A stretch of 64,000 nucleotides of DNA, taken from the NCBI RefSeq assembly GCF_007752135.1, contig NZ_CP036298.1:7742501-7806500 (forward strand), written 5' to 3'. Shown in pieces: positions 7,321 to 14,188 of this stretch. The stretch's first letter is position 1; every line of letters begins with the position of its first letter. The notes under the pieces were generated by a model. The model saw only the letters and a list, made by a program, of their open reading frames with translations. It did no database searches and was not told the DNA's origin. This DNA comes from Aureliella helgolandensis. Lineage in GTDB: Bacteria > Planctomycetota > Planctomycetia > Pirellulales > Pirellulaceae. The translations under genes were made by a program, and so were the position numbers.

Positions 7321-8544
7321 TTAGCCGAAGTCATCGAAGGCAATATTCTCGGGTTCGACACCCAAGTCATCAAGCATTTTGAACACAGCCGCATTCATCA
7401 TCGGCGGGCCACACAAGTAGTACTCAATGTCTTCTGGGGCGGGGTGGTCCTTCAAATAGTTCTCAAGCACGACTTGGTGAATAAAACCAACATAGCCGTC
7501 CCAGTTATCCTCAGGCTTGGGCTCCGAGAGAGCAATGTTGAATTTAAAGTTCGGGAACTCTTCTTCAATCTTGCGGAAGTGATCGATGTAGAACAACTCT
7601 CGCGAACTACGGCCACCGTACCAGTAGGAAACCTTGCGATCCGTCTTCCGGTTCTTGAACAATTCAAAGATATGACTGCGCAATGGAGCCATACCAGCAC
7701 CACCGCCGATGTAGACCATTTCGCTCTTGGAGTCCTTGATAAAGAACTCACCATAGGGCCCTGAAATTGTGACTTTATCGCCCGGTTTGAGATTGAAAAT
7801 GTAAGAGCTCATCTTGCCGGGAGGCGTACCCTCTGGTGCACGTGGCGGCGGTGAGGCAACGCGCACGTTGAGCATGATGATCCCCTTTTCGCCTGGATAA
7901 TTCGCCATCGAATAGGCCCGGATGACTTCTTCATCCACCTTCGACGTATAGCGCCAAACGTTGTAGGTATCCCAGTCTTCGCGGAAGTGCTCTTCGATAT
8001 CGAAGTCCTTGTAATGGACGACGTGCGGCGGAGCTTCGATCTGGATGTAACCACCCGACTTAAAGCCAACCTCTTCACCCTCAGGTAACTCCAACACCAA
8101 CTCTTTGATAAAGGTTGCCACGTTGCGGTTGGAGCGGACGGTACACTGCCATTTCTTGGTCTCGAAGACCTCGGGCGGCACTTCGATCTTCATATCCTGC
8201 TTCACCGCCACTTGGCAACTCAGACGGTAGCCCTCTTTGGCCGCCTTTTTGTTAATATGCGACTTTTCGGTCTCCAGGATCTCTCCGCCACCTTCGGTAA
8301 TACGGACTTTGCACTGAGCACACGTCCCACCACCACCACAGGCGCTGGATACGAAGATCCCATTGTCGGAGAGCGCATTGAGCAGCTTGCCGCCAGCCGA
8401 TACGGTCAGCGACTTGCTCTCGTTGATCTCCAGGCTCACATCGCCCGACGGAACGAAAGCTTTTTTGGCGCTAAGGATAATCGCCACCAACGCCAACACG
8501 ACCAGCGTGAAGACAAATACCCCAAGGAAAACAATAGACATCAT
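7321..8544 (-). CDS. nqrF: Na+-NQR subunit F (NADH dehydrogenase, 2Fe-2S/FAD)
   Basis: Electron-input subunit that oxidises NADH and passes electrons through FAD to a 2Fe-2S cluster. The 407 residues show an N-terminal membrane helix (4-25), a plant-type ferredoxin domain with cysteines 69, 75, 78 and 110, the flavin-binding RAYSMANYP, the nucleotide-binding [11 protein letters not shown] and the C-terminal [13 protein letters not shown] ... AFDDFG typical of NqrF. It is the sixth gene of the operon, 44 bases after nqrE. Two adjacent Met codons open the frame; either could be used. Confidence 0.97.
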
Positions 8545-8588: not shown

Positions 8589-9212
8589 TTACAATTGAAT
8601 ACCGGAGAAGGCCATAAACGCCATCGCGATTAAGCCCACGGTAATGAAAGTAATTCCAAGTCCGCGCAGCCCCTTCGGGACGTCGCTGTAACGCATTTTC
8701 TCGCGAACTGCCGCCAAAGCCACAATCGCCAAGCCCCAGCCAAAACCAGAACCAAAACCGAACACAATGCTCTGCGGGAAGTTGTAGTCGCGCTGTTCCA
8801 TGAACAGCGATCCTCCCAGAATGGCACAGTTTACGGTAATCAACGGCAGGAAAATTCCTAATGCGTTGTACAGCGGCGGGAAGAAGCGATCGAGAACCAT
8901 TTCTAGGATCTGGACACTGGCGGCAATCACTCCGATGTAAGTGATCAATCCCAAGAAGGACAGATCGACCGACGCGTATGAGGAATCGCCCAGCGTGGTT
9001 GCTAGCGCTCCCTCCTTTAACACATATTGGTACAGCAGGTTGTTCGCAGGAACCGTGATCGATTGCACAACGACCACGGCAATGCTCAATCCAATGGCTG
9101 TCTTAACGTTCTTGGAGACCGCCAAGAAGGTGCACATTCCCAAGAAAAAAGAGAGTGCCAAGTTCTCAACGAAAACGGCCTTCAGAAACAGGCTGAGGTA
9201 TTCTTCAATCAT
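8589..9212 (-). CDS. nqrE: Na+-NQR subunit E
   Basis: Integral membrane subunit with six hydrophobic helices in 207 residues, the usual length. With NqrD it encloses the intramembrane iron centre; the conserved cysteines are visible at residues 27 (SFFLGMC) and 129 (LITVNC). It starts 3 bases after the nqrD stop codon. Confidence 0.96.
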
Positions 9213-9215
9213 CAG

Positions 9216-9842
9216 TTAAGCCTCCTCAACTTGTTCTGGTTTGAACGTGCGAATCACCCAAATGATGATACCAATGATGAAGAAGGCACTCGGTGCCAAC
9301 AACATCAAGCCATTGGGGTTGTACCAACCACCGCTGGTTACGGGATTCAGAATGACGTAGCCGAATAGCGATCCCGAGCCGAATAACTCACGGAAGAAGC
9401 CCACGGTCAGCAAGATAAAGCTATATCCCAGTCCGTTACCGATACCATCCAAAAAGCTCATGAGCGGGTCGTTCTTCATGGCGAAGCCTTCCGCCCGCCC
9501 CATCACGATGCAATTCGTGATAATCAAGCCGACAAACACGCTGAGCGTCTTACTCGTCTCGAACAGAAATGCTTTCAGCAGCTGGTCTACCAGGATTACC
9601 AAGGAAGCAATCACGACCATCTGCACGATAATCCGAATACTGGACGGGATGCGATGCCGAATCGAACTCACCGCAGCACTTGCACAGCCGGTCACTAACG
9701 TAACCGCAATGCTCATCACCAAGGAGGTCGACATCTGAGTCGTCACCGCCAAGGCCGAACAGATACCGAGGATTTGAAGGCCGATCGGATTGTTATCGAA
9801 GATCGGCTTCAACAGCACGTCTTTAGCCGTTTGGGCTGCCAT
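9216..9842 (-). CDS. nqrD: Na+-NQR subunit D
   Basis: Integral membrane partner of NqrE, 208 residues with six hydrophobic helices. Iron-ligand cysteines appear at residues 28 (LGICSAL) and 111 ([12 protein letters not shown]). The start at 9842 is fixed by an AGGAG ribosome site and lies within the last 20 bases of nqrC, indicating translational coupling; the 17 in-frame residues upstream belong to the overlap and are not family-like. Confidence 0.96.
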
Positions 9843-10665
9843 TGGAGGCTCCTTGCTGCGAGGCCAGTTTCTTAATGTAAGGTCCGAAGCCATTGTCGCT
9901 GAACCAATACTTCAGCATCGAATCGACTCCACGACTGGTAATCGTTGCACCGGAGAGGCCATCCACCTCGTAGGGAGCTAACTCAGTGGGCGGGGCGCCC
10001 TTGGCTACGCCAATCTTCAGATTGTCGTCTTCACGCGGTGCCCCTTCTTCCCAAATCTTCTTGCCAATCCACTTGGCTTTCCAAATCGGATTTTCAACTT
10101 CACCACCTAATCCAGGTGTTTCAGCGTGCTCGTAGTAGGTCAAGCCTTGGATGGTTTGCAAGTCATGCTCGACAGCCACATAGCCGTAGAGCGTGGACCA
10201 CAATCCACGGCCGTAAATGGGCAACACGACCTGTTCGAACGAAGCGTCGTCTTCACTCGCCCCCTCAGCCTTGATTAGATAGACCCAAGTCTGCTTCTCG
10301 CGTTCCTTGTTTCCGATATCGAATTGCCCCTCTACCGGTGTATTACGCTCTGGGTCCTTCGCAGCCTTGCGAGGCTCATACATTTTGTCGGGATCTTCGA
10401 CATATTCTCCCGTGTCAATATCCAGCAACTGCCTGACCACACGTGAACGAAACAGTTCTTCAATCTCATCTCCGCTCAAACTGTCTGGATCCTCGGCCAG
10501 CCCTGCAGCGGCAATGATGTTCTTTTGACGATCCAGCAGCTTGTTGCGTTCCTGTCGCGGCTTGAGCGAGACGGCCGCTCCACTGACCAGCAGGGAGCAG
10601 ACGATGCACAGTACGAGCGAGACAATGAACGTGTTGGCTATGGAATCTTTATCGTTAAGCGGCAT
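9823..10665 (-). CDS. nqrC: Na+-NQR subunit C (covalent FMN)
   Basis: Periplasm-facing flavoprotein subunit. One N-terminal membrane helix (about 11-33) anchors the protein, and the C-terminal domain carries the flavinylation motif [10 protein letters not shown], whose Thr241 would receive FMN from ApbE. Starting at 10665 the protein has 280 residues, slightly longer than typical (about 260). The start lies inside the end of nqrB with a GGAGGG ribosome site; the gene also overlaps nqrD at its end. Both overlaps suggest tightly coupled synthesis. Confidence 0.96.
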
Positions 10666-11953
10666 AGCGGAGAGCCCTCCGTTTGATGTTGGCCTGAACC
10701 ACAAAGTAATCGATGAGTGGAGCAAACACGTTTCCGAACAAAATTGCGAGCATAATTCCTTCCGGGAAGGCAGGGTTGATCGCTCGAATCAAAATCGTCA
10801 TGGCGCCTATCAGGCCACCGTAGTACCATTTGCCTGTTTCGGTCATCGACGCACTCACCGGGTCGGTGGCCATGAAGACCGTTCCAAACGCAAAACCACC
10901 GATCACGAAGTGCCACCATGGTGGAACTTGGAACATCGGATTCGTTTCGCTCCCCACGATGTAGAGCAATGAGGCAAGGCCAGCAGCACCAATACAAACA
11001 CCCGCCATGATCCGCCAGGATCCGATTCCGGTGGCAATCAAGATAACCGCACCAATTAAGCAAGCCAGCGCGCTCGTTTCGCCCATCGAGCCTGGGATGG
11101 TTCCCAAGAACGAGCTCATCCAACTCACACTCTGCTCGCCACCGGTCGTCGCAATATGCTGCAGTGATTCCATCGCACTTCCCAACTCGTCGACTTGCTT
11201 GGGCTTCAACTGCCCCAGCCAGCCCAAGGCGGTTGCACCGGAGTAACCGTCTACGGCCCCATCGCGAACGAACTTAGCGGCAGTCCAAACTTTGTCGCCG
11301 CTGATCTGACCAGCGTAGGCGAAGTAGAGGAAGGCTCGGGCGGTCAGTGCGGGGTTGAGGAAGTTGCGTCCCGTTCCGCCAAAAATTTCCTTGCCGATCA
11401 CGACACCAAACATAATCCCCACGGCAACTTGCCACAGCGGAATGTCGGGAGGTAGAGTCAGCGGAAATAGCAAACCCGTGACCAGAAACCCTTCGTTGAT
11501 CTCATGGCCGCGAATCATGCTAAAGACAAGCTCGCTGAGGCCACCAGCGGTCATACAGACGATGTAAACCGGTAGGAAAAAGATCGCCCCATAAACCAGG
11601 TTATCAAGAAAGCTGCCTGGATCGTGGGCCAATCCCAGCGCAGAATGAATCGAATTGTGCCAGTCGAAGGCAGGCTCAAGCCCAGCCTCTTGGATCGCCT
11701 GGATCGCCAAATTCGCCTGGTAACCCGTATTCCACATCGCCATGAAAACGCACGGGATCAAGGCCACTACGACCATGGTCATCATGCGTTTGAGATCCAG
11801 CGAGTCCCGAACGTGGGTTAACCCCTTCGCGACCTGGCCTGGTGTGTACAAGAACGTGTCGGCCGCTTCGTAAAGCGGGTACAACTTCTCAAGCTTGCCA
11901 CCCTTGTCAAACAAGGGATGCATTTTGTCGAGCGTATTTCGCAAGAACTTCAT
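10655..11953 (-). CDS. nqrB: Na+-NQR subunit B (covalent FMN, sodium channel subunit)
   Basis: Largest membrane subunit and main sodium pathway. The 432 residues contain about ten hydrophobic helices, the flavinylation motif GYSGATALG with Thr241, and the conserved [11 protein letters not shown] helix. The start at 11953 ([15 protein letters not shown]) is 7 bases after the nqrA stop; the preceding 27 in-frame codons overlap nqrA and are not family-like. Confidence 0.96.
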
Positions 11954-11960
11954 CGAAAGA

Positions 11961-13313
11961 CTAGCCCTCTCTCTCAATCGTGAGCAGATTGTCTCGCAGT
12001 ATTTCACCGTATTCGTATTTACCGGGACACACAAAGGTGCATAGTCCCAAGTCTTCCTCGTCGAGCTCCAGACAGCCCAGATCTTGGGCTACCGCTGTCT
12101 CGCGAGAGATCAATGCCCGCAACAGGAGCGTGGGAAGCAAATCCAACGGCATCACTTTTTCATAGGACCCAATCGGGACCATCGCCCGCTCGCTGCCGCC
12201 TGTACTCGTAGTCATGGCAAACTTTTTCGAGCCCTGCCATGCCGCTGCAAATGCTCGCGTCACCGAAAACTTGTCGAAGCCCGGTGACTGCCAACCCAAA
12301 AATTCGCGCTCCGTACCTTCCAGCAAGCACGACACCTGCAAATGGTAACGGCCTAGATACCCAGTTAAGTTTTCCAGCGAACGGCCGTTAAGCACCGAAC
12401 CCGAAACAATGCGATTGTCGCCCGCATTCAACTCGCCTTCCACCAATTGCTCGATCGAAGCACCCAGCTGGGTTTGAATCAATCGCGGCCGTTTCACACC
12501 AGGCCCAGCCAATGACACGATCCGCGTCAAGTCCAGCTCGCCGGTCAAAAACAACTGGCCAATCGCGATGGCATCTTGGTAATTCAAATGCCAGTTCACC
12601 CGACCGATGGTCGCTGGCTTGAGGAAGTGCATGTGAGTCCCAACCAAACCGGCGGGGTGGGGCCCGTCAAACTCGGCCACTTTAACCCGAGGAGTACCGT
12701 CTCCCGGAACGGCGGAGCTGGGCGCTCGACACACGAACACAGGACCATCGGTCAAACTGGACAACACCGAAAGACCGGCGGTAAAGGCCTCTTGTCGCTC
12801 AGCCACAATCGCAGCCGGTGCGGCAGCCAAGGGGTTGGTATCCATGGCGTTTACGAAAATTGCCTGCGCCTGCGATTCTGGCGACGGAACCTTACTGAAC
12901 GGGCGCGTTCGCAAAGCCGTCCACAAACCTGAATCCACGAGCTGCGAGACCACCACATCGCGACTGAGCTTCTGCAACTGCACCGCGTCGTAGCTGGCGA
13001 ACTTGCGACTCTGCTGATCGCCCTGCTTGTCAATTACGATCGACAGAAACCGCCGTTTGGCTCCGCGATTGACGGCAGCCACGCGGCCACCCGCTGGCGC
13101 GGTAAAGACGACTCCCGGAGTCTTCTTATCTGAAAACACGGGTTGCCCCAAAACCACTTCGTCCCCTTCGGAAACGAGCAGCGTCGGCCGCATGCCGATA
13201 TAGTCGTCGGCCACGATGGCAACCTGACGAACCTCTTTAGACTCGATTTTCTGCTCGGGTTCACCACTGATTGGAACGTCGAGCCCTCGTCCAATTTCAA
13301 ACCTATCCACCAT
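11961..13313 (-). CDS. nqrA: Na+-NQR subunit A
   Basis: Cytoplasmic, cofactor-free subunit near the quinone site; first gene of the operon. The 450 residues match NqrA length. Visible family segments include [15 protein letters not shown] at the start, [13 protein letters not shown] in the centre and [15 protein letters not shown] near the C terminus, which identifies NqrA rather than the related RnfC because no CxxCxxC ferredoxin motifs are present. The ribosome site is weak (GGAG about 17 bases upstream). Confidence 0.96.
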
Positions 13314-13372: not shown

Positions 13373-13390
13373 TTGTGAAATATTTCACAA
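13373..13390. promoter_or_regulatory. Rex-type operator upstream of the nqr operon
   Basis: TTGTGAAATATTTCACAA is a perfect 18-base palindrome, 59 bases upstream of the nqrA start codon. It equals the consensus published for the redox repressor Rex (TTGTGAA-N4-TTCACAA), which senses the NADH/NAD+ ratio and often controls NADH dehydrogenases. It also contains a CRP-type core (TGTGA-N6-TCACA), so a CRP/FNR-family regulator is the alternative. No rex or crp gene is in the window. The core promoter cannot be placed with confidence. Confidence 0.75.
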
Positions 13391-14188
13391 GCAGATCTTA
13401 AAAATAATCCCGCAGTAAAAATGAGTATCACGGCGGGACCGCAAGCAGAGCTGGGATTGGTTTCGGAAGGAAGCAAGCCCTCTGTTGAACTAAGTTCTCG
13501 AGATAGGGGCAACGCTTTCCGCACGAGCCAGTACAGAGCTTCAACTCGAATTATGGTTGTCGATTATGACGAAGCGGCCTGGATCTGACAACGGCAGTTG
13601 AGGTTTAGTTGCAGACACTCCCGCGTTAGGCCCCCGCAAACAATCCCAAACGCCTGGTCCAACAACGTAACGCACACGCCCCTACGGCGGCATGCCAACC
13701 AACACCTCCTCCTTAAGGACAGTACGCAACCATAAACACACTTCGGAGGTTTTACAGAGCCGCCAACGAGAGCTCGCACCAGTCGCCGGCGCGCCGTGGC
13801 GTCGCTTGATTTCTACGGGACTCACCACCGGGGCCCTCTTCCCGAGCCGACCAACGAGAGGTGAATCACGGCGCTGTAATTCTGCCTGCAACCCGTTCTC
13901 AGAAGCAATTCATTCCGCTGCCCCCCTGCCCTGCGACGGAGCCAATCGAGGTCCACGCTTCTACAAAAACCGCTACAATTCCCAAGAGTTGCGTTCAACC
14001 CGCACCCCGCCGCCAGGACTCCGTCTCGCACCGTAAAAACAAGCGAGTCTTGGCCTCGGCGACTGCTGTAGCACAGCCCGGCGGGTCCCTGGAGCGTAAT
14101 TTCCTATCCATTGTTTCCTGAGGGAGTCCCCTCAGGCCCGTGCAACAACCCCGAATTGGTTAACCGCCCCACTCAAGCAGGACCATCC
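13391..14188. other. Long intergenic region between nqr operon and lipoprotein gene
   Basis: About 800 bases between divergent genes. Beyond the Rex-like palindrome at its left edge I see no conserved gene, RNA or repeat. Several short open frames overlap one another on both strands without ribosome sites or family-like sequence and are not called. Confidence 0.5.

Follow-up and report, generated by a model that had tools for sequence, protein, structure and literature searches.

A Rex-Type Operator before the Na+-NQR Operon of Aureliella helgolandensis and Its Possible Action as an NADH-Switchable Roadblock

Rex Regulons and Polymerase Roadblocks

Rex, its operator and repression by roadblock are all already known. 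Rex regulons have been described in Firmicutes, Actinobacteria and Thermotogae, and the nuo operon is a Rex target in Streptomyces. The main comparative Rex study, by Ravcheev in 2012, reportedly covered phyla that do not include Planctomycetes. The Rex operator of Staphylococcus aureus is given as TTGTGAAW4TTCACAA in passages of PMC2883068. The locus described here shares with these regulons the TTGTGAA-N4-TTCACAA operator, conserved base- and NADH-contact residues, and an NADH dehydrogenase operon as target. It differs in that the target is nqr in a planctomycete, that in this genus a promoter-like block and a phased hairpin precede the operator, and that 31 rex loci, scanned roughly for autoregulation (in a wrong frame in L049, L064 and L066), gave no site of at least 12/14 before the HTH of rex. 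Here and below, genomes carry G numbers and loci L numbers.

A repressor bound downstream of a promoter stops the elongating polymerase in the cases of CodY, CcpA and LacI, and Mfd is the major remover of LacI-stalled polymerase, as described in parts of PMC4132739. The model proposed below likewise has the repressor downstream of the promoter, but a hairpin lies at the expected stall point, whereas Mfd clears the polymerase stalled at LacI. A geometrical parallel is found in the eukaryotic Pol I terminator with its Reb1/Nsi1 roadblock. According to passages of PMC12366685, polymerase halts there 15 bp ahead of the Reb1 site, within a T-rich stretch, a halt 8 bp past the hairpin leads to fast release, and a stable hairpin of random sequence also releases the polymerase. 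Hairpin, T-rich stretch and protein site follow in the same order at our locus, and the hairpin and T-rich stretch lie approximately 15 bp before the proposed roadblock site in the genus, at 12/15 nuo loci and at 9/35 other nqr loci. The polymerase here is, however, bacterial, and the roadblock would be NADH-switchable and placed before rather than after the genes; we regard the resemblance as an analogy only, with no homology implied.

In the open-access literature, surveyed mainly by title and abstract, we found neither Rex control of a planctomycete nqr operon nor a Rex hairpin/roadblock module. No open-access publication was found that treats nqrA, Rex and NADH together, and the combination of Rex, redox-sensing and planctomycetes led to just a Micromonospora study.

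The Operator before nqrA and the Rex Protein of the Genome

The window, that is, the whole stretch of 64,000 nucleotides that was analysed, contains the following features:

13373..13390, no strand: Rex-type operator TTGTGAAATATTTCACAA, a perfect dyad (sequence, conservation, rex co-occurrence)
11961..13313, minus strand: nqrA (Pfam, NCBIfam)
10655..12034, minus strand: nqrB (Pfam, NCBIfam; ORF from the first start codon, the true start probably internal)
9823..10725, minus strand: nqrC (Pfam, NCBIfam; ORF from the first start codon)
9216..9893, minus strand: nqrD (Pfam, NCBIfam)
8589..9212, minus strand: nqrE (Pfam, NCBIfam)
7321..8544, minus strand: nqrF (Pfam, NCBIfam)

An earlier note on this DNA had described an 18-base palindrome equal to the Rex consensus in front of a complete Na+-NQR operon. 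Both parts of this description were confirmed: TTGTGAAATATTTCACAA is a perfect 9+9 dyad, and the six genes downstream of it constitute a complete nqrA-F operon by Pfam and NCBIfam models. The operator ends 59 bp before the ATG of nqrA (13313), and this gap goes down to 22 nt across nqr loci. Within the window, TTGTGAAATATTTCACAA is the sole match at up to 3 mismatches, and 3/100 shuffles had at least one. Further copies of the 18-mer, which the note had thought worth seeking, did not turn up in exact form, as TTGTGAAN4TTCACAA occurs exactly once in the 8.44-Mb genome (8,439,957 bases, one contig); allowing up to 3 mismatches, the 18-mer has one further place in the whole genome. A loose operator pattern gave no usable signal in this genome (191 matches versus 168 for the reversed control). 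Since a second exact site is lacking, the Rex regulon of A. helgolandensis may comprise a single operon.

A single site in a single genome is weak evidence, and conservation was therefore decisive. The sample of relatives consisted of 98 genomes, including the window's own, of which 46 had an nqrA match and 81 a rex match. Upstream DNA was usable for 45 nqrA genes (the window's own included; a C-terminal fragment in G014 and the weak second matches L092 and L093 were left out of the count), and an operator of at least 11/14 was present within 450 bp of nqrA in 42/45. The palindrome is hence conserved in front of nqrA among relatives, and chance as its origin is excluded. These 42 sites comprise 21 at 14/14, 18 at 13/14, 2 at 12/14 and 1 at 11/14. 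The three nqrA genes without an operator belong to G018 and G091, in which rex is present, and to G023, which has neither site nor rex. Named genomes gave a similar picture: a site of at least 11/14 was found at 13/16 planctomycete-labelled nqr loci (absent in L163, L164 and L177), six of the 16 being the same records as genomes of the G series and hence not independent. The nqr site of Rhodopirellula baltica scores 13/14, and strain K23_9 has the identical 18-mer. The other 63 loci from named genomes for which upstream DNA was available, mostly of Vibrio, Pseudoalteromonas, Photobacterium and their relatives, included none of at least 12/14 and six at 11/14. Beyond the genus, the operator is longer, approximately ACW-TTGTGAAN4TTCACAA-WGT. 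The Rex-consensus bases are conserved at the outer TT/AA and at positions 7 and 12. A role of the palindrome itself as an RNA hairpin is disfavoured: changes in the 42 sites hit both halves alike (T1C in 4 and T2C in 3, versus A17G in 4 and A18G in 2), and pairing was broken about as often as a wobble pair was kept.

The rex homologue that the note had proposed to look for is present. One PF06971 match above cut-off was obtained in the genome, in a 243-residue ORF (L003:1393-2124), which scored 229.6 bits against the NCBIfam Rex subfamily model (cut-off 126) and whose closest PDB relative is the Rex of T. maritima (E 1.4e-46). DNA-contact and NADH-switch residues of the latter were taken from passages of PMC8836258. 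Eight of the 12 DNA-contact residues are identical in the Rex of this genome, including R48, R60 and G61, the changed ones being E34, K43, K49 (to Arg) and S52; Y100 and D191, which take part in the NADH switch, are conserved. As judged from these sequence comparisons, the palindrome is very probably bound, as its operator, by the NADH/NAD+-sensing Rex repressor that this genome encodes.

A Phased Hairpin and the Way Rex May Act

Three further features are located upstream of the operator:

13563..13591, minus strand: sigma70-like promoter TTGTCA-N17-CATAAT, upstream of the hairpin (consensus scan; block conserved in the genus)
13408..13438, minus strand: terminator-like hairpin TCCCGC...GCGGGA in the proposed nqr leader, its last stem base 18 bases before the operator (genus alignment)
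13400..13407, minus strand: T-run TTATTTTT directly after the hairpin (genus alignment)

An alignment of 12 members of the genus exhibited, on the coding strand, a conserved promoter-like TTGTCA-N17-CATATT, then the hairpin TCCCGC...GCGGGA, and then TTATTTT. The T-run spans 17 to 10 bases before the operator. A consensus scan picked up this promoter too (1 match versus 0.2 expected), and its terminator match was an overlapping alternative fold (13444-13428) that was not above chance (1 versus 0.6 expected). When 11 loci were aligned at the hairpin (L027, which has a different one, was omitted), 4/9 stem pairs had at least one both-side change that was still paired; the covariation term was small (-0.09), and the three inner pairs were broken in two or three sequences each. 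A known RNA family was not recognised, since the window gave 0 Rfam matches at gathering scores; near the site, a eukaryotic lncRNA at E 0.81 was taken as chance.

The same palindrome was found before nuoA, the first gene of complex I, at 15 loci among the exact sites away from nqrA, which were annotated from their flanks. The nuoA gene was identified by Pfam in L094, L101 and L106, and by eye from the N-terminal sequence of NuoA in L095, L096, L098, L100, L135, L138, L142, L289, L290 and L345; L099 and L132 were assigned through NuoB just downstream. In one genome of the window's own genus (G012) the palindrome precedes both genes, nqrA at L028 and nuoA at L135. A sensor of NADH predicts one operator common to two different NADH-oxidising complexes, as was found. 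A promoter TTGACN-N16-18-TANNNT with a score of at least 9.5 was detected upstream of the operator at 11/15 nuo loci, compared with 1.0% of shuffles. Its -10 element ends 39-61 bases before the operator and adjoins the hairpin, so that the predicted nuo transcript would start almost at the hairpin. Most other exact sites (43 loci and nine more) have no target in common, and many of the exact sites away from nqr and nuo may be due to chance. One of them (L107 in G071) lacks a strong hairpin and is followed downstream by genes for a CBS-domain protein and a pyruvate:ferredoxin oxidoreductase. Six exact sites occur in G078 (L102, L123-L127), which has no nqrA match and no HTH_Crp_2 match, and four exact copies of one operator sequence occur in G035 (L118, L128-L130); the ORFs of L128 and L129 are arranged alike over the first half, which makes repeated DNA likely.

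Terminator-like hairpins were scored at every offset from the operator by a home-made score, for which a threshold of 6 was chosen after seeing the genus and was reached by 12/12 genus members. The score peaks sharply for stems ending 17-18 bases short of the operator. Among 35 other nqr loci, which sample the 46 site loci outside the genus at roughly one for each genus (eleven were left out, mostly as same-genus copies: L088, L162, L223, L253, L256, L260-L263, L265 and L269), a score of at least 6 was obtained for 9 in the bin from -30 to -16 (26%) versus 0-9% in other 15-nt bins, all nine falling within one base of offset -17. At the nuo operators the threshold was reached by 12/15, all at offset -16 or -17, leaving three without a strong hairpin. 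It was reached at 0/43 loci with exact sites elsewhere, at none of nine further sites, and, among 3000 random places, at 1.7%. Family f21, which is rex-less, showed such a hairpin without an operator in 2/20 nqrA upstream regions. The stem sequences are unrelated between genera, and the structure and spacing are hence what is conserved.

Comparison of genomes thus gives a conserved, rex-associated predicted operator before Nqr and Nuo operons, a hairpin phased with it, and conserved promoter-like blocks upstream. From this geometry we infer a roadblock, in which Rex binding, its release by NADH, the transcription start and the termination are all predicted steps. In the genus, transcription of nqrA-F would start at the promoter upstream of the hairpin, and the operator would not lie on the promoter. 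The polymerase would pass the hairpin and T-run and meet the operator approximately 10 bp past the T-run. At low NADH, Rex-NAD+ would stay bound and halt RNA polymerase at a point where the active centre lies within the T-run, and the halted polymerase would be released by the hairpin, which amounts to repression by roadblock-assisted termination. When NADH accumulates, Rex would depart and the polymerase would read through into the genes of the sodium-pumping NADH dehydrogenase. We assign this full explanation of nqr control a probability of roughly 0.55. That the operator lies downstream of the transcription start appears likely, and the chances of hairpin-assisted termination at the operator are about even.

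If this explanation is true, planctomycetes and the sodium-pumping NADH dehydrogenase would both come within the reach of NADH sensing by Rex, with a simple feedback loop as the result, in which excess NADH induces its own consuming enzyme. If the hairpin works as proposed, it would represent a new mode of action for a bacterial repressor, which gates termination instead of blocking initiation, and a bacterial equivalent of the Pol I hairpin/roadblock terminator, gated by a metabolite. Unrelated operons carry the proposed module with unrelated stems, which would tie it to function and not to one gene. We tentatively speculate, at slightly less than even odds, that promoter, hairpin/T-run and Rex operator form a portable module controlling Nqr or Nuo in the window's order and a neighbouring order, in which Rex, as a switchable roadblock, turns on a weak intrinsic terminator at low NADH.

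Rex operators usually act at promoters, which speaks for a simpler alternative, ordinary repression. It states that the operator overlaps or immediately follows an nqr promoter of its own and that the hairpin is a terminator insulating nqr from upstream transcription. This arrangement is suggested by 5/35 other nqr loci, none with a strong hairpin (L036, L083, L191 of R. baltica, L196 and L258), at which TTGAC occurs 16-17 bases before the operator; four of them (L083, L191, L196 and L258) also have a -10-like hexamer inside the operator. This class weakens the roadblock explanation and strengthens that of an ordinary promoter, as does the lack of a strong hairpin at 26/35 other nqr loci. Two genus members (L022 and L024) point the same way, with single promoter-like matches (score 9.5) in the stretch from the operator to nqrA. 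Against it, TTGAC precedes the operator in 0/12 genus members, and their promoter-like block is upstream of the hairpin, with no conserved block between operator and nqrA. In addition, an insulating hairpin would open the transcript at most nuo loci, where the promoter is just upstream of it, and the spacing between hairpin and operator is fixed to approximately ±1 base despite the differing stems. We consider ordinary repression rather unlikely as the explanation for the window's locus, while the five TTGAC loci fit better with a second architecture, in which Rex would block a conventional promoter.

The Protein That Probably Binds the Palindrome

The roadblock explanation presumes that Rex is the binding protein, and this was compared across the phylum with a sample of 343 genomes, of which 91 had rex and 101 had nqrA matches. 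The region upstream of nqrA was scored in 74 of the 101, the other 27 being weak matches (24-34% identity) or broken (G289); 10 of the 74 genomes are also in the sample of relatives. A site of at least 12/14 preceded nqrA in 17/19 genomes with rex versus 2/55 without it (Fisher p 1.2e-12), although 25 of these 55 come from the single rex-less family f21 and the test hence involves few independent events. An exact site anywhere in the genome was present in 21/91 rex-positive versus 7/252 rex-negative genomes (Fisher p 2.8e-8), the latter rate being close to that of the reversed control pattern (5/343 genomes). In G118, rex is present and the site reaches only 11/14. Among near relatives, the site was found in 39/41 rex-positive and 3/4 rex-negative nqr genomes. 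The association of rex and site hence comes from the comparison of clades, because near relatives carry the site with or without rex alike. Together, the rex gene, the conservation and the phylum-wide association provide good support, at the level of sequence, for the Rex reading that the earlier note had put forward.

Six rex-negative assemblies have the site, three before nqr (G010, G051 and G044) and three before nuo (G073, G081 and G089). They are drafts of 83-99% completeness in 130-920 contigs. A Rex profile search with a 22-row alignment, at E values up to 5, gave a best E of 0.0012 in these six (G073), for which the match is the Rossmann part of a 465-residue frame; two positive-control genomes were matched at 1e-82 and 1e-71 in this search, while an earlier one had no positive control. 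The absence of rex from both searched members of genus g60 (G073 and G089) suggests a true loss or another binder.

The same note had remarked that a CRP-like regulator also fits the core. This stands as far as the core is concerned: TGTGAN6TCACA, the CRP consensus, is present inside TTGTGAAATATTTCACAA, and a CRP/FNR-family protein could bind it instead of Rex. NADH dehydrogenase genes belong to the targets of Crp in Shewanella oneidensis, according to parts of PMC12210985, a text in which 'nqr' appears 111 times. Retention of the site in the six rex-negative assemblies would also be accounted for in this way. The distribution of such proteins argues otherwise. In a search with one of the two Pfam CRP helix families, HTH_Crp_2, matches above cut-off were obtained in 55/98 relatives and in only 25/42 site-bearing nqr genomes, compared with rex in 39/42, and six genomes with the site had zero HTH_Crp_2 matches (G016, G019, G026, G031, G044 and G096). 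Moreover, conservation of the site at the outer TT/AA and at positions 7 and 12 agrees with the Rex consensus. Because many site-bearing genomes are without an HTH_Crp_2 protein, CRP/FNR was rejected as the main reading and is very unlikely. Least probable is another, unknown regulator of the same sequence, in rex-containing clades as well as the six rex-negative assemblies, for which speak two genomes with the site and with neither rex nor HTH_Crp_2 above cut-off (G051 and G044) and the g60 members that retain the site before nuoA without rex, and against which stand the exact match to the Rex consensus, the phylum-wide association with rex, and the draft state of the six assemblies, from which a rex gene is possibly missing.

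Returning to Rex itself, its recognition/wing motif differs among the relatives. The Rex proteins of the genus (L003, L319-L326 and L338) and that of L330 have IRRD..RGVGY, with KRGVGYN or similar, and most of those from other relatives (most of L047-L076) have VRKD..YPGIGYRC instead; L327-L329, L331-L335 and L337 yielded nothing in the motif search. The rex gene of the genus is possibly a replaced or diverged gene with an unchanged operator. Finally, a sequence resembling CGGTGAA...TTCACC was observed approximately 380-440 bp 5' of the HTH of rex in L052, L054, L056-L058 and L061.
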